Shown piece by piece: positions 8,085-57,574 of a stretch of DNA of 64,000 nucleotides. Position 1 is the first letter of the stretch. Each line of letters begins with the position of its first letter. Source of the stretch: Zunongwangia pacifica (GTDB taxonomy: Bacteria; Bacteroidota; Bacteroidia; Flavobacteriales; Flavobacteriaceae); the NCBI RefSeq assembly GCF_023499215.1, contig NZ_JAKHSK010000003.1, forward strand, positions 124,001 to 188,000. The letters are read 5' to 3'. The notes under the pieces are model-generated. The model did no database searches, had not been told where the DNA came from, and saw only the letters and a program-made list of their open reading frames with translations. Made by a program: the position numbers and the translations under genes.

Positions 8085-9890
8085 TCAAAAACAATACTTA
8101 TTTTCAGCGATTAACTTATCGGCAATTTCAGTTCTTAATTTTACTACATTCGGGAAGTTATCGTATTTGGTGAAACGCTTTAATCCCATTAACATCATTC
8201 GTAGCTCGTCTCCTTCAGCGAAAGAAATAATTCCTTCTTTGGCTTTGGCGTTGATTTTTTCAACGGCATTATAAAGGTAAAGCTGAGACATTGCTATTTG
8301 TTCTTTTTGGGTATCTTCCCCAAAACGTTTCGCGTTTTTTTCGGTTCTTAAAATAGCCGATTCTGCCATATATACTTCAATTAGAATATCTGAAGCAGCC
8401 AATAATAATTGCTGATGTTCTTCTAGCTGTGGTCCAAATTTCTGAACAGCACTACCGGCAACCATTAAGAATACTTTTTTCAGCTTTTTGATCATTTCTT
8501 TTTCTTCTGCGAATAATTCAGAATAATCGGGTTTGTCAAAAGACGGAATTCCCATTAATTCTTCTCCTACCGCTTGTGCAGGCCCTAAAAGATCTACGTG
8601 ACCTTTCATCGCTTTTTTTACGAGCATACCTACCGAAAGCATTCGGTTAATTTCGTTGGTTCCTTCATAAATTCTGGAAATACGAGCGTCTCTCCAAGCA
8701 GCTTCCATCGGCGTATCGGCAGAGAAGCCCATTCCACCAAAAACCTGAATTCCTTCGTCAGAGCAATTCTGAATATCTTCTGAACAAGCAACTTTCAAAA
8801 TTGAACATTCTATCGCATATTCTTCCACACCTTTTAATTCGGCTTCAGAATGCGAGTTTCCACTTTCCAGACGAATATTGATTCGGTCTTCAATATTTTT
8901 AGCCGCACGGTACGAAGCAGATTCACCCACATAAGCAGAAGTGGCCATTTCGGCTAACTTTTGCTTAATTGCTCCAAATTGTGCGATTGGCGTTTTAAAC
9001 TGCACTCTTTCGTTGGCATACTTTACCGCATTTTCAGTCACACGACGTTGTGCGTCTAAACAGGCTGCAGCCAGTTTAATTCGCCCAATATTTAACGCGT
9101 TCATTGCAATTTTAAAACCTTCGCCACGACCAGCCAACATATTTTCTACCGGAACTTTGGTTTCGTTAAAGAATACCTGACGGGTAGAGGAGGAGTGGAT
9201 CCCTAATTTCTTTTCTTCTTCCCCAAAAGAGATTCCGTTTTCTTTATCGTTTTCTACGATAAACCCGGTGATGTTTTTATCATCTTCTACACGAGCAAAA
9301 ACGATAAATACATTCGCAAAACCAGCGTTTGAGATCCACATTTTCTGTCCGCTAATGCTGTAGTATTTTCCGTCTTCAGAAAGTACGGCTTTGGTTTTTC
9401 CTGAATTGGCATCACTACCTGCGCCCGGTTCAGTTAAACAATACGCGCCAAACCATTCGCCGGTGGCTAATTTAGGCACGTATTTTTTCTTTTGCTCTTC
9501 GGTTCCGTAAAGCGTGATGGGCATTGTTCCAATCCCGGTATGCGCTCCAAAAGCGGTAGCGATAGATCCGGTAGCTCCAGAAATGTAGTCACAAACTAGC
9601 ATTGTAGAAACAAATCCCATCCCAAGTCCGTCATACTCTTCGGGTATGGCAACGCCAAGAAAACCAAGTTCCCCGGCTTTTTGCATAATTTCTTCGGTAA
9701 GTGCGTAATCTTTTTTCTCGAATCGTTCTTTGTGCGGAACGATCTCACGATCTACAAATTCTTTTACAGAATCACGCATCATCTTTTGCTCCTCGTTAAA
9801 ATCTTCAGGAGTAAAAACGTCGTCGCAGCTGGTTTCTTTTACTAAGAATTGACCACCTCTTAATATTTCTTTATCTGTTTTAGCTTCCAT
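8085..9890 (-). CDS. Acyl-CoA dehydrogenase (FadE-type, beta-oxidation step 1)
   Basis: 601 residues, longer than the ~380-residue short/medium-chain enzymes and close to very-long-chain forms. It has the dehydrogenase core (YCLTEPGAGSDANSGKTKA, MWISNAGFANVF) with the FAD and substrate motifs, EGIQVFGGMGFSADTPME, and RIYEGTNEINRM, whose first Glu is the usual catalytic base position. A C-terminal ~170-residue extension follows, as in VLCAD-like enzymes. It oxidises acyl-CoA to enoyl-CoA and is the last gene of the operon marR-fadB-fadA-acd, each main pair separated by a small four-helix-bundle gene. Chain-length preference is inferred only from architecture. Confidence 0.94.
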   Translation of the reverse strand: MEAKTDKEILRGGQFLVKETSCDDVFTPEDFNEEQKMMRDSVKEFVDREIVPHKERFEKKDYALTEEIMQKAGELGFLGVAIPEEYDGLGMGFVSTMLVCDYISGATGSIATAFGAHTGIGTMPITLYGTEEQKKKYVPKLATGEWFGAYCLTEPGAGSDANSGKTKAVLSEDGKYYSISGQKMWISNAGFANVFIVFARVEDDKNITGFIVENDKENGISFGEEEKKLGIHSSSTRQVFFNETKVPVENMLAGRGEGFKIAMNALNIGRIKLAAACLDAQRRVTENAVKYANERVQFKTPIAQFGAIKQKLAEMATSAYVGESASYRAAKNIEDRINIRLESGNSHSEAELKGVEEYAIECSILKVACSEDIQNCSDEGIQVFGGMGFSADTPMEAAWRDARISRIYEGTNEINRMLSVGMLVKKAMKGHVDLLGPAQAVGEELMGIPSFDKPDYSELFAEEKEMIKKLKKVFLMVAGSAVQKFGPQLEEHQQLLLAASDILIEVYMAESAILRTEKNAKRFGEDTQKEQIAMSQLYLYNAVEKINAKAKEGIISFAEGDELRMMLMGLKRFTKYDNFPNVVKLRTEIADKLIAENKYCF

Positions 9891-9945
9891 TTTTATTATT
9901 TTGAATTTTGAATTATAAATTTTGAATGCTTATAATTCAATAGTG

Positions 9946-10296
9946 TTAGACATTGTTTTTTGCTGTAATTATGATTTTTGTAATGATATTGATAATATGA
10001 TTTACTTCCTTTATCTCATCTAAAACATTGAGAGTTGTTAGCTCAGAATTATTCAGTAATCGTAACCAATATTTAGTTTCTCTAGCTTCTTTTGAAGCGA
10101 TAGACATTTTATTTATAAAATCTCTTTTGGATTGAGCAGCCGTGGCTTCTTCAACATTGGTTCCAATACTTGTTCCTGATTTTACAAGCTGTTTTGAAAT
10201 AATGAACTCTTTATCTTCCTGAAGTTTTTTGAATAGGGAAATAATACTTAGAGAGAAATTGAAAGTTTTATCGATAATTATATTTTCTGTTTTCAA
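9946..10296 (-). CDS. Four helix bundle protein (23S rRNA IVP / S23-like), copy 1
   Basis: 116 residues, all-helical, with the family signature KQLVKSGTSIGTNVEEATAA followed by SKRDFINKMSIASKEARETKYWLRLL. The family was named for an ORF in 23S rRNA intervening sequences, but here no rRNA is nearby; it lies between acyl-CoA dehydrogenase and thiolase genes on the same strand. The segment is bounded by imperfect inverted repeats (9912-9932 and 10322-10342, about 19 of 21 positions matching), and the right one reaches the thiolase stop codon. Molecular function is unknown; dimeric or pentameric bundles are known in the family. Confidence 0.88.
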   Translation of the reverse strand: MKTENIIIDKTFNFSLSIISLFKKLQEDKEFIISKQLVKSGTSIGTNVEEATAAQSKRDFINKMSIASKEARETKYWLRLLNNSELTTLNVLDEIKEVNHIINIITKIIITAKNNV

Positions 10297-10341
10297 ATTT
10301 CTCCCAATTCTAATTCAACATTTAGCATTCAAAATTCATAA

Positions 10342-11529
10342 TCAAAATACCTCATAAACCCCTGCGGCACCTTGTCCCGTTCCTACGCACATTGTTACCA
10401 TCGCGTATTTGTTGTTCAGGTTTCGTTTGCGCATTTCATCAAATATCTGAACGGATAGTTTGGCTCCGGTACAACCCAGCGGGTGACCCATTGAAATCGC
10501 ACCACCGTTTACATTCACGATATCTTTGTTTAATCCTAATTCACGAATCACGGCTAAAGACTGAGAAGCAAAGGCTTCATTCAATTCGATTAATGAAATA
10601 TCGTCTTGTTTTAATCCGGCTTGTTTTATTGCTTTTGGAATGGCTTTTACCGGTCCAATTCCCATAATTCTTGGTTCTACACCAACAGCGGTGTAACTTA
10701 CCATTCGGGCAATGGGTTCAAGGTTGAGTTCTTTTACCATTTCTTCGCTCATCACCATTACAAAAGCAGCACCGTCACTCATTTGCGAAGAGTTTCCGGC
10801 AGTGACACTTCCGCCTTCGGCAAAAACAGGTCGGAGTTTGTTCAAAACGGCTTCCGAAGTATCTTTTCGTGGTCCCTCATCTTTATTAACCGTATAGCTT
10901 TTGGTTTTCTTTTTTCCGTCTGCATCTACATAAGTCTCATCTATCGTGATCGGAACGATCTGATCCTGAAAACGATCTTCCGCCTGAGCTTTAATGGCTT
11001 TTTGATGCGAATTGTAAGCAAATTCATCCTGATCTTCCCGAGAAACTTTATACTGATTGGCCACCGCTTCGGCAGTTAATCCCATTCCCCAGTAATAATC
11101 TTCGTGACCTTCTTTCGCGAGTTTATAATCGGGAACCGGTTTGTAACCACCCATCGGGATGTAGCTCATACTTTCCGCGCCACCAGCGATAATACAGTCG
11201 GCCATTCCACTCTGAATTTTAGCGGAAGCAATGGCAATGGTTTCCAATCCGGAAGCGCAATAGCGGTTTACCGTCATTCCCGGTACGTCTTCGGTTTTTA
11301 ATCCCATTAAAGAAATTAACCGACCTACGTTTAAACCTTGCTCAGCTTCGGGCATTGCATTCCCAACGATCACATCGTCGATACGATTTTTATCAAAATC
11401 CGGAAGTTTATCCATCATATATTCGATGGTTTCGGCTGCCAGTTCATCTGGTCTTTTAAATCTGAACACGCCTCGGGGTGCTTTCCCCACCGCGGTTCTA
11501 TATGCTTTTACTATGTATGCTGTTTTCAT
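10342..11529 (-). CDS. fadA: Acetyl-CoA C-acyltransferase (thiolase, beta-oxidation)
   Basis: 395 residues, the normal thiolase length. Motifs: [10 protein letters not shown] with the acyl-accepting Cys91, [23 protein letters not shown] with the catalytic His, and [11 protein letters not shown] with the second catalytic Cys. It cleaves 3-ketoacyl-CoA with CoA to acetyl-CoA and a shortened acyl-CoA. Its position between the multifunctional FadB-like enzyme and acyl-CoA dehydrogenase supports a degradative rather than biosynthetic role. A strong assignment. Confidence 0.95.
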
Positions 11530-11574
11530 TTTTTCTAGTATTTAGTATTTAGATGTGAGATTTGAGACGTGAGA

Positions 11575-11931
11575 TTATTTAGATGAAAATTTTTGGATGA
11601 GTGTATAATTCATTTTTTGTATTTCCATCAAATCATCAATTATTGGCTGAATTTTAAACTCTGTTATTAGATCTAATTCGTAGGCAAGGATTAATTGCGT
11701 ACAAAGCTCATTAGAAGAGCCATTAGCGATACCTAGAAAATTTCTAAACTCTCCATTTGTATTTCGTCCCGCTCCTTCGGCAATATTAGAAGCGATTGAA
11801 ATAGCGCTGCGACGAATCTGACTTGTAAGTCCGAATTTTTCTTCAGAAGGAAATTCTGAAGAAATTAGATATACTTTTTTAGCAATTCTCATTGCTTTTT
11901 GCCAAATCTTCAAATTTTGAAAGTTATGCAT
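11575..11931 (-). CDS. Four helix bundle protein (23S rRNA IVP / S23-like), copy 2
   Basis: 118 residues. Starts MHNFQNLKIWQKAMRIAKKVY, then FGLTSQIRRSAISIASNIAEG and FLGIANGSSNELCTQLILAYEL, the fuller signature of the family. It is clearly diverged from the copy at 9946-10296 (different N-terminus, different repeat text around it), so it is not a recent tandem duplication. It sits between thiolase and fadB on the same strand, flanked by imperfect inverted text rich in GAGATTTGAGA / TCTCAAATCT (about 11543-11580 and 11937-11974). Function unknown. Confidence 0.9.
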   Translation of the reverse strand: MHNFQNLKIWQKAMRIAKKVYLISSEFPSEEKFGLTSQIRRSAISIASNIAEGAGRNTNGEFRNFLGIANGSSNELCTQLILAYELDLITEFKIQPIIDDLMEIQKMNYTLIQKFSSK

Positions 11932-11967
11932 AGCGAATTCTTAAATCTAATATCTCAATTCTCAAAT

Positions 11968-14376
11968 CTAATTACGTAGAGGTTTCCCCTTCTGTAACAT
12001 ATGCTGAAGGCGTTCTAATGTTTTTCGTTCTCCGCAAAGGCTTAAGAAAGCTTCACGTTCCAGGTCTAATAAGTATTGTTCACTTACATACGATGCTTCA
12101 GAAAGGTCTCCACCGGCCATTACGTAAGCCAGTTTGTTAGCGATTTTCTTATCGTGGTCGCTAATATATTTTCCGGCGTTCATCTGGTCGGTTCCTACAT
12201 AAAAAGCTCCTAAAGCCTGTTTTCCCAACACTTTGATGTCGTTACGTTTAATAGGTTGTGTATATCCATTATCTGCCATTAACATCGCGTGTTTTTTCGC
12301 GATGGCTAATTGGTTGTCACGGTTCACCACCACAATATCTTTTCCTTTTTGTAGAATATTGGTATCGTAAGCTTCGTATGCCGAAGTGGATACTTTCGCC
12401 ATCCCGATGGTGAGGAAATTTTCGCGTAATCGGTTTAACTCAACATCATCTTTTTGGTAAGTGTCAGCCGCTCTCAGTGTCATTTCTTTAGAACCGCCAC
12501 CGCCGGGAATTACCCCAACACCAAATTCTACTAAACCAATATATGTTTCGGCGTGTGCTACCACTTTATCGGCGTGTAAGGAAAGTTCGCAACCGCCACC
12601 CAAGGTCATATTATGCGGAGCAGATACGGTTGGAATAGCCGAGTAGCGCATACGCATCATCGTATCCTGGAAGTATTTAATGGCCATATTCAACTCATCA
12701 TATTCCTGCTCGACCGCCATCATAAAGATCATTCCGATATTGGCGCCTACTGAGAAGTTTTTTCCGTCGTTGGAAACTACCAATCCACGGTATTCCTTTT
12801 CAGCTAAATCAATCGCTTTATTGATTCCGTCTAAAACATCACCACCGATGGAATTCATTTTACTGCGGAATTCTAAATTGAGGATGCCGTCGCCTAAATC
12901 TTCAACGACAACTCCACTGTTTTGGAATACAGCCTTAGATTCACGAATATTATCTAAAATGATATGGGAATCTTTTCCAGGAACTTTTACGTGTTTCTTC
13001 TCAGAAATTTCATAATAATAGGTGTTTCCTTCTTTTACTGAATAGAAGGAAGTCACCCCGGCGTCAACCATTTCTGAAACCCAGGCTGCAGGCTCGTAAC
13101 CTTCAGCTTTCATCATCTCAATTCCCTTTTCTACACCAATGGCATCCCAAACCTGAAATGGCCCGTGTTCCCATCCAAAACCGGCCTGCATTGCATCATC
13201 GATTTTGTAAAGTTCATCGGTAATTTCTGGAATTCTGTTTGACGCGTAAGCGAAAAGTGCCGAGAAGTTTTTGCGGTAAAATTTACCTGCTTTTCCTTCA
13301 TCTTTAATTAAAACTTTATAACGATCGCTAAGTTTATCGATAGTTTTTGTTTGGTCTAAAACTCCGAATTTTGCGCTTTTACGATCCCGAAATTCCATTT
13401 TATCAAGATCCAGAGATTTAATTTCGCTGGAACCGTCGTCTTTTTTTACTTTTTTATAAAATCCGGTATTATCAGTTTTGCTTCCCAGCCATTTGTTATC
13501 CATCATTGTCTGGATAAAATCGGGCAGTTTAAAAAGCTCGTGTGCTTCATCTTCGGGAACGTTTTCGTACAATCCGTTAGCAACGTGCACCAACGTATCT
13601 AAACCCACCACATCTACGGTACGAAAGGTAGCCGATTTTTGGCGGCCAATTACCGGACCGGTTAACTTGTCGACCTCTTCAATGGTCATATCCATATCTT
13701 TTACCATATGGAATAAACTCATAATGCTGAAAATCCCTACGCGGTTTCCGATAAATGCCGGAGTGTCTTTGGCGATTACCGATTTTTTCCCGAGGAATTT
13801 TTTTCCGTAGTCATTCAAGAAATTCAATACCTCTTCTGAAGTATCGGGTCCCGGAATAATTTCGAATAAACGTAAATATCTTGGTGGATTGAAAAAGTGC
13901 GTTCCGCAGAAATGTTTCTGGAAATCTTCACTTCTACCTTCGTTCATAAATTTAATGGGAATTCCGGAAGTGTTGGAAGTAATTAAAGTTCCCGGTTTTC
14001 TATGTTTTTCAAGTTTTTCAAAAACCTGTTTTTTAATGTCTAATCGTTCTACAACCACTTCGATAATCCAATCTACTTCAGAAACTTTAGCGATATCATC
14101 TTCTAAATTTCCGGTGGTTATGCGATTGGCAAAATCTTTATGGTAAATAGGGGAGGGCTTGGATTTTAAAGAATTTTGAAGGGAATCGTTAACGATACGA
14201 TTACGCACTTCTTTGTCTTCTAAAGTAAGTCCCTTTTTTTGTTCTTTTTCATTGAGTTCTCGCGGAACGATGTCGAGCAGTAACACCTCGACGCCAATAT
14301 TGGCGAAGTGGCAGGCGATACCGCTACCCATAATTCCTGATCCAATGACAGCAACTTTATTGATTATTCGCTTCAT
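11968..14376 (-). CDS. fadB: 3-hydroxyacyl-CoA dehydrogenase / enoyl-CoA hydratase fusion
   Basis: 802 residues. The dehydrogenase comes first: Rossmann NAD motif VAVIGSGIMGSGIACHFAN at the N-terminus, TSNTSGIP and GTHFFNPPRYL, then the helical C-domain (FIGNRVGIF). A crotonase-fold hydratase domain follows from about residue 490 (VVSNDGKNFSVGANIG, MTLGGGCELSLHADKV, GVIPGGGGSKEM). This is the reverse of E. coli FadB order, and such HAD-first fusions are common in Bacteroidota. It carries out beta-oxidation steps 2 and 3. The start is 2 bp after the marR stop, so the two are certainly co-transcribed. Confidence 0.94.
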   Translation of the reverse strand: MKRIINKVAVIGSGIMGSGIACHFANIGVEVLLLDIVPRELNEKEQKKGLTLEDKEVRNRIVNDSLQNSLKSKPSPIYHKDFANRITTGNLEDDIAKVSEVDWIIEVVVERLDIKKQVFEKLEKHRKPGTLITSNTSGIPIKFMNEGRSEDFQKHFCGTHFFNPPRYLRLFEIIPGPDTSEEVLNFLNDYGKKFLGKKSVIAKDTPAFIGNRVGIFSIMSLFHMVKDMDMTIEEVDKLTGPVIGRQKSATFRTVDVVGLDTLVHVANGLYENVPEDEAHELFKLPDFIQTMMDNKWLGSKTDNTGFYKKVKKDDGSSEIKSLDLDKMEFRDRKSAKFGVLDQTKTIDKLSDRYKVLIKDEGKAGKFYRKNFSALFAYASNRIPEITDELYKIDDAMQAGFGWEHGPFQVWDAIGVEKGIEMMKAEGYEPAAWVSEMVDAGVTSFYSVKEGNTYYYEISEKKHVKVPGKDSHIILDNIRESKAVFQNSGVVVEDLGDGILNLEFRSKMNSIGGDVLDGINKAIDLAEKEYRGLVVSNDGKNFSVGANIGMIFMMAVEQEYDELNMAIKYFQDTMMRMRYSAIPTVSAPHNMTLGGGCELSLHADKVVAHAETYIGLVEFGVGVIPGGGGSKEMTLRAADTYQKDDVELNRLRENFLTIGMAKVSTSAYEAYDTNILQKGKDIVVVNRDNQLAIAKKHAMLMADNGYTQPIKRNDIKVLGKQALGAFYVGTDQMNAGKYISDHDKKIANKLAYVMAGGDLSEASYVSEQYLLDLEREAFLSLCGERKTLERLQHMLQKGKPLRN

Positions 14377-34160: not shown

Positions 34161-35333
34161 ATGAATTATATACTTTTTGATGGTTCGGTAAGAAACCAGT
34201 TACTCCCTTTTACCTTTACCCGCCCGGTAGCCGATATTAGATTCGGTATATTAACCATGCGCGAGCGCTGGGAATATATTCTTGGTAGTACTACATCAAC
34301 GATTACCGAAGATTACCTGAGCGAAAAGTGGCCATTAGTTGAATTTGAGGAAAATGTGATGATTAATGCCGCTTATTTTCCTTCTTCAGCATTTATCGAT
34401 CAGGTGAAGAATCTGCAAAAAAACGAAGCAATTTTTGATGGAGAAGAAATCGTTGCTTTTTATGCCGAAGAAGATCAGGAGGTCGATTTTACAGCATTTA
34501 AACAATTGGAAATTGCAGGAGAGGTTCTTAAATTAGCCTATACCTGGGATATATTTTCAAAAAATGGGATTGCGATTCAATTCGATTTTAAATTAATTAC
34601 TGAAGATCGTGAATCTCAGCCTATAGATTCCTCGAATTACGTAAAAAATCCGGAAAATATTTTTATTGAAGAAGGTGCTGTTGTTGAAAATTGCTCATTA
34701 AACGCCAGTAATGGTCCAATTTATATTGGGAAAGATTCTTTGGTGATGGAAGGTTGCTTTTTTCGTGGCCCTATTGCGATTGGTGAAGAAGCTATCGTGA
34801 AAATGGGTGCTAAAATATACGGAGCCACAACGATAGGTCCCGGGAGTAGGGCAGGAGGAGAGATTAATAATTCGGTATTATTCCAAAACTCCAATAAAGG
34901 TCATGAGGGATATTTAGGAAATTCGGTATTGGGTGAATGGTGTAATTTAGGTGCCGATACCAATAACTCTAATCTTAAAAACAATTACGCTGAAGTCCGT
35001 CTTTGGGATTATGAAACAGAAGGTTTTGCAAAAACCGGACTCCAATTTTGTGGTTTAATGATGGGCGATCATAGTAAATGCGGAATCAATTCGATGTTTA
35101 ATACCGGCACAGTGGTTGGCGTGAGTTGTAATATCTTTGGAACGGGATATCCACGAAATTTTATACCCAGTTTTAGCTGGGGTGGAAGCTCGGGAATGAC
35201 CACCTACCAAACCAAAAAAGTTTTTGAAGTCGCCAGGCTTGTTTTAGAACGTCGTAAAATGGAATTTACCGAGCAGGATGAAGCGATTTTAGAACATGTA
35301 TTTGAAGAAACATCTAAGTATCGTAGATATTAA
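34161..35333 (+). CDS. GlmU-like putative sugar nucleotidyltransferase with left-handed beta-helix
   Basis: 390 residues. The N-terminal ~190 residues (MNYILFDGSVRNQLLPFTFT, RPVADIRFGILTMRERW) belong to the NTP_transf_4-like group; the glycine-rich LxxGxGTRxxPLT loop of true GlmU is not present. The C-terminal part has hexapeptide-repeat turns (YIGKDSLVMEGC, AIGEEAIVKMGAKIYGATTI, GPGSRAGGEINNSV) of a left-handed beta-helix acyltransferase. Commonly annotated as GlmU family in Flavobacteriia next to rpmE2. Either a divergent nucleotidyltransferase or an acyltransferase; substrate unknown. Confidence 0.8.
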   Translation: MNYILFDGSVRNQLLPFTFTRPVADIRFGILTMRERWEYILGSTTSTITEDYLSEKWPLVEFEENVMINAAYFPSSAFIDQVKNLQKNEAIFDGEEIVAFYAEEDQEVDFTAFKQLEIAGEVLKLAYTWDIFSKNGIAIQFDFKLITEDRESQPIDSSNYVKNPENIFIEEGAVVENCSLNASNGPIYIGKDSLVMEGCFFRGPIAIGEEAIVKMGAKIYGATTIGPGSRAGGEINNSVLFQNSNKGHEGYLGNSVLGEWCNLGADTNNSNLKNNYAEVRLWDYETEGFAKTGLQFCGLMMGDHSKCGINSMFNTGTVVGVSCNIFGTGYPRNFIPSFSWGGSSGMTTYQTKKVFEVARLVLERRKMEFTEQDEAILEHVFEETSKYRRY

Positions 35334-35403
35334 AATTAGATGTTAGATCCCTTCGCTTTTAGATATTAGAAGCTAGATATTTTAAATATGAAAGAAATCT
35401 TCT

Positions 35404-35667
35404 CTAAAACATTAAATACCAGAAGATAGAAAGAACAATAATCATAATTACAGCGGTAAAGGCGATAACTCTTTGCCGCTTTTTGTTATTTTCAGCTTTG
35501 ATTTTTTGACCTAACTTGCTGAGTTCTTCTTTAGAAAGCTTGTCGTAATCACTAAGTTTCCCAAGTTTAGACCCTGTTTTTTCGGCATAGCGTTCTAGCT
35601 GAGAAGTCCTTTTTCTCCTATTGTTACGCTGACTAACAATTGCCGCTATGGCGCTTCCAAAACTCAT
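35404..35667 (-). CDS. Small hypothetical membrane protein
   Basis: 87 residues: basic N-terminus (SQRNNRRKRTSQLERYAEKT), a charged helical middle and one C-terminal transmembrane helix (about 67-86, VIAFTAVIMIIVLSIFWYLMF), i.e. tail-anchored topology. I do not recognise the family. It is flanked on both sides by simple 'TTAGATATTAGAAGCTAGATA'-like text seen elsewhere beside the four-helix-bundle genes. Coding potential is supported by composition and an in-frame membrane helix but not by a family. Confidence 0.6.
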   Translation of the reverse strand: MSFGSAIAAIVSQRNNRRKRTSQLERYAEKTGSKLGKLSDYDKLSKEELSKLGQKIKAENNKKRQRVIAFTAVIMIIVLSIFWYLMF

Positions 35668-35748
35668 ATTATAAATTTAGAAAAAAGAATATAGATCTTA
35701 GAAATTAGACTCATAATTTTTGATCGTTAAAATTATCAGACATCTTAA

Positions 35749-35837
35749 GTCTCTTGTCTCTTGTCTCTTGTCTCTTGTCTCTTGTCTCTTGTCTCTTGTC
35801 TCTTGTCTCTTGTCTCTTGTCTCTTGTCTCTTGTCTC
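35749..35837. repeat. Heptamer tandem repeat (GTCTCTT)12.7
   Basis: Twelve complete perfect copies of GTCTCTT plus GTCTC, 89 bp, with no interruption. It ends 4 bp before the stop codon of the DUF3037 gene on the - strand and lies between it and the small membrane gene. A + strand frame through it would give a Leu-Ser-Cys repeat but has no other support. Confidence 0.97.
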
Positions 35838-55404: not shown

Positions 55405-55463
55405 ATATTATTTAGAAATTAAGCTGCTTTCCTATAAGAAATGATTATTTTCGCATCGAAATT

Positions 55464-55700
55464 TTGGTTCGGTAATACCGATTAAAAGGGAATCAGGAAA
55501 AGTTAGAAGATTAGAAGTTAGCACTACAAAATAGGTGTAGTTTATTTAAATCTTCTTTTCATTAAACCTGAGCTGTTCCCGCAACTGTAAGCTTTGTTCC
55601 CAATTGGGAATGCTTGTAAAAAACTTCAAAAACCACTGTCTTTATATAGATGGGAAGGTAATTTACAGGACGCTAGCCAGGAGACCTGCCAGAGATAATT
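55464..55700 (+). promoter_or_regulatory. Cobalamin riboswitch (AdoCbl class) controlling btuB-btuG
   Basis: Conserved elements in order: GGTTCGGTAATACCG (about 55466-55480), ATTAAAAGGGAATCAGG (55481-55497), CCTGAGCTGTTCCCGCAACTG (55567-55587 region), CCACTG (55633-55638), ATGGGAAGG (about 55650-55658) and the B12 box AGCCAGGAGACCTGCC (55675-55690). The arm between AATCAGG and CCTGAGC is enlarged to about 70 nt. Between the B12 box and the ATG, GCCAG (55688-55692) can pair with CTGGC (55732-55736), enclosing GACT/AGTC, a likely expression platform hiding the start region. It should switch off the genes when cobalamin is plentiful. Confidence 0.95.
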
Positions 55701-55738
55701 AAAAACGGATTGACTTTCGGGATAAAAGTCGCTGGCAA

Positions 55739-57574
55739 ATGAACAAACAACTACTTTTTTTACTAGTAGCCTTAGGGCTTTTTGGGTCTAAACTATATTC
55801 TCAATCGGGAAAAATTACGGTTTTAGATACCGTGATGCTAAGTGACGAAAAACTGGAAAAGTTTTCGACCGGGCAGCATGTTACGCAACTTTCAGATTCT
55901 CTGCTTACCTTTAATAATCCTTTACTTACCGAGGTTTTAAATTTTAATACCCCAATTTATTTTAAGGAAAACGGACTTGGGATGGTTTCTTCTCCTTCGT
56001 TCAGAGGAACATCAGCTTCACAAACCGCGGTGATTTGGAACGGGATTAACATCAATTCCCAATTTAATGGGCAAATTGACTTTAACACGGTAAATAGTGG
56101 TGCGTACGATCAAATTTCGGTTCGTGGCGGGGGCGGAAGTGTGGTTTATGGTACCGGAGCCATTGGTGGAAGCATTCATCTTAATAATACCTTATCATTC
56201 AAAAAACAACAGGATCATCATCTTTTACTGCGCTATGGGAGTTTTAATACACTCGATGCACGTTACAACTTTAAAACTGCCCAAAATAACTGGAGCCTAA
56301 ATTTAGCAATTTCCAGAAATAGCAGTGATAATGATTACGATTATCCCAATGATCTTGGTAAAAACCTAAATGGAGCTTTTTATAATAATTCAGCAAATGT
56401 GACGCTGGGGTATCGCTTTAATGCTAAAAATACGCTTAAACTTATTAGTGAGCTCTATGATGGAGAGCGTCATTTTTCACTAATTCGGGCTTCAGAAAAT
56501 CGTACCAAATACATCGATCGGTCTTATCGCAATTTGGTAGAATGGAATAGTGAATTTTCCAATTTTACCCAAATAACCAGATTTGCATTTATACAAGAAG
56601 AATATCAATATTACGGAAATATCGAAAGTGATAATTTTACCCTCGGAAATGCCCATAGTTACATTGGGAAATACGATTTGGCCTATAAAGCTTCAAAGGA
56701 TATCCTGCTAAATGCGGTGATCCAAAATACGTATACAGAAGGAGAGGGGAGTAGCATTGCTGAAAATGATCGAAATATATTTTCAGCAGCAATTTTAATA
56801 AAACATGCGCTTAATGATAAATTTCAATATGAAATGGGTTTGCGTAAGGAAGCTACCGATAACTATGATAGTCCGCTTTTATATTCTTTTGGCGCCAATT
56901 ATGAGTTTAGTGATCTTTACACCTTAAAATTTAATGCTTCCAGAAATTTTAGGGTTCCAACCTATAACGATTTGTACTGGGCCTCATCGGGGAATCCAGA
57001 TTTAAACCCGGAAACTTCAGATCAGACAGAAATCGGAAGTATTTTCAATATTGCAAATTTCGAATTAGGACTTACATTTTTTTACAATCAGGTAGAAGAT
57101 ATGATTCGCTGGTTACCGGGAGCAGATGGTGTTTGGCGACCAGGTAACGAAGATAAAGTGGAGATCTATGGCATCGAATCTTACATCAACTGGCAAAAAA
57201 AGCTGACTGAAGATCAAATTTTAAGTGCCAATTTTAACTATGCCTATAACGTTTCAGAAAACGATAAAACTAACCGACAATTAATTTATGTTCCGTTCCA
57301 TAAACTGAATGGAAATATTACGTATCAAATTAATCGTTTTACACCATCCCTTCAGTTTTTATATACCGGAAAGGTGTTTACAAGAACCGATCATAGTGAT
57401 GAACTTTCGAGTTATTTTTTAACCAATCTGGGACTTTCCTATGCTATGGATAAGCAAAGGAACTGGCAGTTGGGCGTGAAAGTAAACAACCTATTTAATA
57501 CCGAATATCAAAATGTAGAAAACCGGTGGATGCCGGGAGTTAATTTTAATATATATCTGAATTTTAAATTTTAA
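55739..57574 (+). CDS. btuB: TonB-dependent outer-membrane receptor, vitamin B12 (BtuB-like)
   Basis: 611 residues with signal peptide (MNKQLLFLLVALGLFGSKLYSQ). Plug domain contains SSPSFRGTSASQTAVIWNGI and VRGGGGSVVYGTGAIGGSIH, followed by a 22-strand barrel rich in aromatic-terminated strands and ending NFNIYLNFKF with terminal Phe. Size fits BtuB (about 600). Directly behind a cobalamin riboswitch and 10 bp ahead of a BtuG-like gene, so B12 is the substrate with good confidence. No STN domain, so no transmembrane sigma signalling. Confidence 0.92.
   Translation: MNKQLLFLLVALGLFGSKLYSQSGKITVLDTVMLSDEKLEKFSTGQHVTQLSDSLLTFNNPLLTEVLNFNTPIYFKENGLGMVSSPSFRGTSASQTAVIWNGININSQFNGQIDFNTVNSGAYDQISVRGGGGSVVYGTGAIGGSIHLNNTLSFKKQQDHHLLLRYGSFNTLDARYNFKTAQNNWSLNLAISRNSSDNDYDYPNDLGKNLNGAFYNNSANVTLGYRFNAKNTLKLISELYDGERHFSLIRASENRTKYIDRSYRNLVEWNSEFSNFTQITRFAFIQEEYQYYGNIESDNFTLGNAHSYIGKYDLAYKASKDILLNAVIQNTYTEGEGSSIAENDRNIFSAAILIKHALNDKFQYEMGLRKEATDNYDSPLLYSFGANYEFSDLYTLKFNASRNFRVPTYNDLYWASSGNPDLNPETSDQTEIGSIFNIANFELGLTFFYNQVEDMIRWLPGADGVWRPGNEDKVEIYGIESYINWQKKLTEDQILSANFNYAYNVSENDKTNRQLIYVPFHKLNGNITYQINRFTPSLQFLYTGKVFTRTDHSDELSSYFLTNLGLSYAMDKQRNWQLGVKVNNLFNTEYQNVENRWMPGVNFNIYLNFKF

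Follow-up and report, generated by a model that had tools for sequence, protein, structure and literature searches.

S23p genes between inverted heptad arms in a fadB-fadA-acd operon: candidate counterparts of the 23S rRNA intervening sequences

The intervening sequence (IVS) of Coxiella 23S rRNA has a terminal stem of 28 bp, with GACAGAT heptads in tandem ahead of an S23p ORF, and its excision by RNase III has been reported (PMC4990558, in excerpt). According to the same excerpts S23p has no known function. A structure of the family has been solved since 2006 (2gsc), and database records label such genes 'four helix bundle protein' or 'S23 ribosomal protein'. Excerpts of two further papers state that the family profile PF05635 resembles Avd (PMC10053308) and that other 23S insertions carry transposases (PMC2672173). 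A separate body of work describes heptamer repeats in bacterial genomes: TAACTGA in Beggiatoaceae, cyanobacteria and Bacteroidetes (PMC4679880), and GGGAATC in Xanthomonas and GGGGA(T/C)T in Nostoc, with 70-75 inverted heptamer pairs in two Xanthomonas genomes (PMC4692102). In the excerpted text of both papers these arrays are treated as possible regulatory, rearrangement or G-quadruplex sequences, and the term 'S23' is absent from their main texts. Among the open-licence PMC papers searched, at the depth to which their text was available, none was found that connects S23p genes located outside rRNA with heptad arms.

The window analysed here is a stretch of 64,000 nucleotides from a 5.1-Mb genome that, judging by its relatives, probably belongs to a flavobacterium-like member of the Bacteroidota. 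The ORF list places a fadB-fadA-acd operon on the minus strand (14376 to 8085), with a fadB-type gene (11968..14376), a fadA-type thiolase gene (10342..11529; 97-98% protein identity within the genus) and an acyl-CoA dehydrogenase gene (acd, 8085..9890), all three on the minus strand and named by inference from sequence. Both junctions are occupied, by one S23p gene each. At the fadA/acd junction, element 1 comprises a minus-strand S23p, or four-helix-bundle, gene of 116 aa with a TTG start (9946..10296), a 5' arm (10313..10347) overlapping the thiolase stop codon on the upstream side, and a 3' arm (9893..9927; 5' and 3' refer to the orientation of the gene), an inverted heptad array with the unit ATTTTGA. 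The repeat search and TRF (period 7 at 9898-9927) describe the arms as degenerate 7-base tandem repeats of 35 nt each that are 83% complementary; their score of 41 was reached by 0/5000 dinucleotide shuffles, the best of which scored 33. The initial annotation had reported 21-mers at 9912-9932 (+) and 10322-10342 (-), matching at about 19 of 21 positions, enclosing a small four-helix-bundle gene and touching the thiolase stop codon on the right. Each of these statements was borne out, with the coordinates exact and the match at 19 of 21; the 21-mers form the core of the 35-nt arms, and a pattern covering both has one forward and one reverse exact match in the 5.1-Mb genome. The cassette was also correctly described as having no transposase: its only gene is S23p.

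Element 2, at the fadB/fadA junction, goes beyond the initial annotation, as does the heptad structure of the arms; it carries a minus-strand S23p gene of 118 aa (11575..11931) between a 5' arm that abuts the fadB stop codon (11952..11969) and a 3' arm of AGATTTG/AGACGTG-type heptads (11558..11575; TRF 11547-11576, period 14). The arms are inverted and 89% complementary, built on a heptad other than that of element 1, and their score was reached by 3/5000 dinucleotide shuffles. The genome holds seven S23p copies in all. With swapped flanks as the control, four of them pass P<0.05 for inverted flanks, the other three giving P values of 0.07, 0.18 and 0.36. Elsewhere in the window, TRF found a perfect GTCTCTT array of 12.7 copies without an S23p gene (35749-35837), with degenerate AG-type heptads seen by eye at about 35330-35440 and 35670-35715; the array may have expanded recently or may be what is left of an element.

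Like the S23p-coding 23S IVSs of Coxiella, as far as the excerpts describe it, and of Azospirillum (L332, below), the window elements combine an S23p ORF, a length of about 430-470 nt and terminal inverted repeats with heptad arms. Unlike them, they lie at the stop codons of protein-coding genes within an mRNA operon and not in an rRNA helix. A search of the whole window with Rfam at gathering thresholds returned no rRNA, and the neighbours of both elements are protein genes; the only match was a cobalamin riboswitch (RF00174, 86 bits, 55448-55707) just upstream of an ORF that starts at 55739 and looks like a TonB-dependent receptor gene. The excerpts of PMC4990558 describe the Coxiella ORF as decaying and probably not expressed, whereas the window-type S23p gene is under purifying selection. 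The published heptamer families share with the S23p arms, in the text available, their 7-nt tandem arrays between genes, in many cases close to a stop or start codon, and overlapping host groups.

The proteins belong to the S23p family. Element 1 encodes a product that matches PF05635 at 80 bits (E=1.7e-22) and TIGR02436 at 93 bits, and the product of element 2 matches PF05635 at 133 bits (E=6.1e-39) and 2gsc by phmmer at E=4e-19. The AF2 model of the element 1 protein has four helices (pLDDT 89.5), and its best PDB match is 2rld, an S23 family protein of Bacteroides that was deposited with five chains and shares 44-46% identity with it (TM up to 0.86, E=5e-7); the next match is 2gsc (Xcc0516) at E 0.007. 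The four-helix-bundle fold is also that of Avd of the diversity-generating retroelements (bAvd, PF22296). However, an identity with Avd was rejected, as the two window proteins scored far below the cut-offs of the Avd models (NF033474, 13.7 and 25.4 bits against 80; PF22296, 15.2 and 21.9 against 40). Avd chains (4dwl, 8ub7/8ub8) reached TM 0.57-0.78 at E 0.13 or worse against the element 1 model and ranked below some unrelated helical proteins. The median dN/dS of S23p was 0.076 with a maximum of 0.24 over 85 pairs, which are not independent of one another, and comparison of the second window gene with that of genome G005 gave dN 0.060 and dS 1.70. S23p is thus under purifying selection, which implies that the protein does something. 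Of 296 genomes sampled from the window's phylum, 213 carry genes of this family.

We evaluated inverted flanks across S23p loci with a score of at least 24 as the threshold and with upstream and downstream flanks swapped between loci as the control. For 115 genes from the window's genome and its relatives, inverted flanks occurred in 60%, compared with 5.3% for swapped flanks and 4.3% for direct repeats; this set derives from 135 matches by per-genome counts, 115 of them taken as separate loci, and from 120 genes found in the loci less five that were cut by a locus end. Among 96 genes in 80 named loci the values were 79%, 15.5% and 22.9%. These are the best 80 of at least 579 confirmed loci, retrieved with canonical-subfamily proteins as query, and they over-represent the fadB/fadA site; they come from Mucilaginibacter, Pedobacter, Flavobacterium, Salegentibacter and others, with two Balneolaceae and one Chlorobiota bin. 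A sample of 29 phylum-wide loci gave 41% inverted, 5.4% swapped and 13.8% direct, and 112 non-redundant loci, mostly Bacteroidota and thinned to genes with under 60% identity, gave 64.3%, 5.2% and 11.6%. The raised direct-repeat scores in the named and non-redundant sets arise because the arms are themselves simple repeats. Detectable inverted flanks are missing in about a third of the non-redundant loci. The check proposed in the initial annotation, whether each four-helix-bundle gene has its own inverted flanks, thus came out positive for a majority of copies, namely for the four significant copies of seven in the window's genome and for the 60% of the 115 genes.

The periodicity of these flanks is specific. 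Self-identity at lag 7 was 0.388/0.379 in the flanks compared with 0.259 in nearby DNA, with further peaks at lags 14 and 21. Of 241 flanks on each side, 153 upstream and 137 downstream held lag-7 arrays scoring above a 1% shuffle threshold, compared with 2-6 arrays for lags 5, 6, 9 and 10 and 21-24 for lag 8 in the same flanks. The heptad unit varies by locus (TCAGTGG, AGATTTG, AGTATTA, TTTTGAA and many more) and is common to both arms within a locus. In the largest subfamily an AG is conserved in each heptad (A 0.80, G 0.87; 204 arms), and subfamily 5, with 12 genes, is enriched for CAGT (6.75 compared with 0.49 per locus, p=9e-10 uncorrected for 256 tetramers). A Mantel comparison of protein distance with arm similarity gave r -0.076, in the expected direction and matched by 7 of 500 permutations. 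The heptad therefore follows the S23p subfamily in part; the overall link is weak, rests partly on orthologous sites, and is confounded for several subfamilies by shared sites. Arms are most often four to six heptads long. A fixed number of five per arm was rejected, since the mode moves from four to six with the mismatch penalty, and a match between five heptads and a protein pentamer is on that account only suggestive.

The order fadB-fadA-acd is conserved in 30 compared loci, and the occupants of its junctions are not. An S23p gene lies at fadA/acd in nine of the 30 genomes and at fadB/fadA in seven (one of the seven, in G008, is broken by a stop), with one or both junctions occupied in 12, and every such gene is on the operon strand. 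Junction contents were examined in 26 of the loci, a scope that leaves out four without an S23p gene (L059, L062, L064 and L065). Clean absence, a point raised by the initial annotation, was found at both junctions: in G006, G013, G014, G017 and G022 they hold spacers of about 7-43 nt. Within the genus, where the fadA proteins are 97-98% identical, the occupant of the fadA/acd junction varies: G000, G001 and G004 share one subfamily there, G003 and G005 have a second one whose arms differ too, and G002 has a GC-rich palindromic element instead. Fixation of the gene and flanks across the family, the outcome that the initial annotation set against its cassette reading, was not what we observed, as occupancy is patchy and occupants have been swapped. 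Vertical inheritance alone was also rejected, given different subfamilies at one junction within one genus, and the palindromic element indicates that insertions of different kinds can settle at these junctions. Such GC-rich inverted palindromes (CCTCCCC...GGGGAGG), REPIN-like by eye, were noted at the fad junctions of L042 (G002) and L049 (G024). Heptad hairpins without a gene were identified by eye at fadB/fadA in G001, G004, G010, G011, G018 and G020 and at fadA/acd in G030. The G001/G004 and G018 hairpins best resemble element arms of their own genome or, for G001/G004, of the sister genome (scores 43-46 and 51, elsewhere at most 31). The G010 hairpin scores 40 with arms of its own genome and 49 with those of G011, and the G011 hairpin has no resembling arms (best score 22).

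Both flanks are common to all 19 gene pairs that are at least 90% identical and to 51 of 55 pairs at 80-90%. Recent copying, which would leave a near-identical gene between unrelated flanks, was accordingly rejected (0/19 and 4/55). At 70-80% nucleotide identity neither flank is common in 375 of 654 pairs, which is what relocation of elements in the distant past would produce. Mapped on a FastTree tree, site labels require 39 changes compared with a shuffled mean of 104, and the fadB/fadA and fadA/acd labels 12 compared with 25; most flavobacterial fadB/fadA copies cluster together, and likewise most fadA/acd copies. Recurrent sites are the fad junctions and, judged by sequence, apparent CoA-transferase, suf and sdh operons. 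Flank sharing together with site labels that follow the tree indicates long residence at a few junctions with occasional replacement, and movement of the elements is rare. The evidence therefore supports one part of the 'mobile cassette' of the initial annotation, a cassette inserted together with inverted ends of its own, and supports mobility only in the sense of slow mobility.

No catalytic domain or transposase lies inside the element, and profile searches of the genomes with RVT_1 and Y1_Tnp pointed to no helper or mobility enzyme. RVT_1 (E<=1e-10) is absent from G001, G003, G007, G011 and G012, which hold 6-16 S23p copies, a further difference from Avd systems. The one such match of the window's genome is on contig C69, and the window is on contig C34. 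Y1_Tnp (PF01797) is absent from G001, G003, G004, G005 and G018, which hold 6-7 copies. Both a reverse transcriptase and a Y1 transposase were rejected as mobilisers in trans, being missing from several copy-rich genomes. With MITEs and REPINs the elements share small intergenic size, inverted ends and gene-less versions; they differ from them in this lack of Y1_Tnp in five genomes and in having locus-specific heptad arrays as ends, with no shared terminal sequence.

The same arrangement extends to other replicons. A plasmid set of 16 loci from 31 records (14 cyanobacterial, one Gemmatirosa, one Azospirillum) gave inverted flanks in 8 of 16 compared with 7.7% for swapped flanks, and lag-7 identities of 0.417/0.415, with TAGGGAG, GGGTGTA, GGGAAAA and GGTGACA among the units. 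In L319 the arms are direct, not inverted. S23p genes are present in plasmid-transfer regions and within CRISPR operons on cyanobacterial plasmids, in the orders cas6 - S23p - cas4 (L319, L322) and cas10 - S23p - cmr3 (L323). The figure legend of a CRISPR discovery paper, in the part of it available, includes '23S rRNA IVP' among its domains (PMC10910872); the S23p genes in CRISPR-Cas operons may be insertions and not Cas accessories. On a Nostoc plasmid, L318 places an S23p element with near-perfect TAGGGAG arms between the genes for the beta and alpha subunits of ribonucleotide reductase, on the opposite strand. Thirty-two relatives were found on contigs called viral by IMG/VR; 28 of these loci gave 29 genes, the rest having short flanks or an identical gene, and 24 of the 29 have inverted flanks compared with 5.9% for swapped flanks. 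A single query of phage records returned no match. L332, on Azospirillum lipoferum plasmid AZO_p2, has an unannotated S23p frame (1437-1904) inside a 23S rRNA gene (RF02541), which makes it an intervening sequence of the classical kind. By eye, one arm reads AGAGGAC GGATGAC AGAGGAC GGAGGAC and the other, in reverse complement, AGAAGAC GGATGAC AGAAGAC AGAGGAC; the automatic score of 20 for this locus understates the two arms because the start was taken inside the 5' arm. The Coxiella-type heptad GACAGAT is also found in a Lewinella locus, L187.

The orientation of the genes and the mismatches within the arms bear on whether the elements act as RNA. In all 115 loci the upstream gene is co-directional with S23p, and both neighbours are in 110. 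In a set of 226 genes (240 minus 14 short or identical), both neighbours are co-directional for 212, only the upstream one for seven and neither for six, against a background of about 70% for adjacent gene pairs (215/309 in G003, 251/357 in G012, 236/337 in G172). The 5' arm starts at a median of -2 nt relative to the upstream stop codon (59 loci), which together with the co-directionality fits an S23p gene without its own promoter. The co-directional upstream gene, the RNase III excision reported in the Coxiella excerpts and the like anatomy of L332 in LSU rRNA would agree with arms that pair in the operon mRNA, with RNase III removing the S23p segment and selection on the RNA keeping the complementarity. 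Judged by mismatch type, this is not borne out, as G-U and A-C mismatches are about equally common: 64 and 64 in 69 loci, 284 and 311 in 158 loci, and 167 and 158 among one-sided arm changes between orthologues. Without a G-U preference, pairing in the sense RNA does not seem to maintain the arms. In addition, three of the 14 annotated cyanobacterial plasmid loci (L317, L318 and L327) are antisense to both neighbours, with ten co-directional to both and one to the upstream gene only. We consider this RNA-level account unlikely. Changes between orthologous arms were one-sided in 880 cases and two-sided in 150, and the latter exceed the 63.7 expected under independence, with 63 of the 150 complementary; each comparison entered the count in both directions, and this excess may be inflated where loci have diverged unevenly. 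The mismatches in the 69 loci are also strand-asymmetric: a sense A or G faces A about three times as often as the reverse (G/T 65 vs T/G 20; A/T 69 vs T/A 22).

Two other accounts concern the origin of the arrangement. The gene and arms could be a domesticated operon device that tunes or insulates metabolic cistrons and is inherited vertically and often lost. The recurrent junctions in the fad and in apparent CoA-transferase, suf and sdh operons, the agreement of site labels with the tree and the low median dN/dS are what such a device would give, but patchy occupancy within one genus, different subfamilies and heptads at a single junction, and the gene-less hairpins and unrelated palindromic element at these same junctions argue against it, as does S23p in CRISPR and plasmid-transfer regions. 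This too appears improbable. Far less credible is the proposal that the arrays grow by replication slippage and template switching with S23p as an unrelated passenger. It would account for the GTCTCTT array that has no S23p gene and for the lag-7 arrays in 6 of 188 sampled spacers in G003 and 6 of 185 in G012. Against it, arrays concentrate on both sides of S23p genes and the heptad follows the subfamily in part. G172, which has no S23p match, has an array in only 1 of 170 spacers; the numbers are small throughout, and since lag-11 arrays are as frequent as lag-7 arrays in G003 and commoner in G172, these array counts are weak. A scan of 400 kb per genome for gene-less hairpins gave 3 heptad inverted pairs in G003, 1 in G012 and 0 in G172, numbers too low to bear on mobilisation in trans.

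The reading that we prefer, and to which we give about an even chance, is that the window elements are IVS-type S23p elements resident in mRNA operons and that an S23p pentamer reads their heptad arms. Both window elements are built alike: the 5' arm begins at the stop codon of the preceding gene, S23p is read in the direction of the operon, and the 3' arm repeats the 5' arm in reverse complement. The S23p homopentamer may be a sequence-specific heptad binder with roughly one protomer per heptad, recognising the heptads as DNA ends in the way that a transposon protein reads terminal repeats. We infer that arm complementarity is mainly a matter of origin and that the arms are read as DNA, most simply by the pentamer. 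The element would live off transcription of its host operon and persist for long periods at a few housekeeping junctions; the occasional move or replacement could proceed through a cruciform and recombination or through a putative helper enzyme. On this view a gene-less hairpin would be either what is left of an element or an element served in trans by an S23p with matching specificity. Weighing against the reading are the lack of recent transposition and of a catalytic domain, the absence of RVT_1 and Y1_Tnp from several copy-rich genomes, the loci without inverted flanks, the raised direct-repeat scores, the direct arms of L319, the predominance of one-sided arm changes among orthologues and the weak link between arms and subfamily.

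A broader proposal is more tentative, and we hold it at somewhat less than even. S23p with inverted heptad arms may constitute one widespread selfish class, found in rRNA, mRNA operons, plasmids and CRISPR loci of several phyla, with the S23p pentamer as a heptad-reading nucleic-acid binder with subfamily codes and with the orphan heptamers of cyanobacteria, Xanthomonas, Beggiatoaceae and Bacteroidota as its arms and remnants. What is new here is the presence in mRNA operons of IVS-type S23p elements whose arms carry a heptad code, a connection between heptads and protein not found in the papers searched, as far as their text was available. S23p genes are often inside apparent core metabolic operons, and elements of this kind may connect several bacterial repeats that so far lack an explanation. 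Should the arms prove to be cognate sites of S23p, the function of this protein and two long-standing, separate puzzles, the 23S IVSs and the heptamer repeats, would become one testable problem with a concrete substrate.
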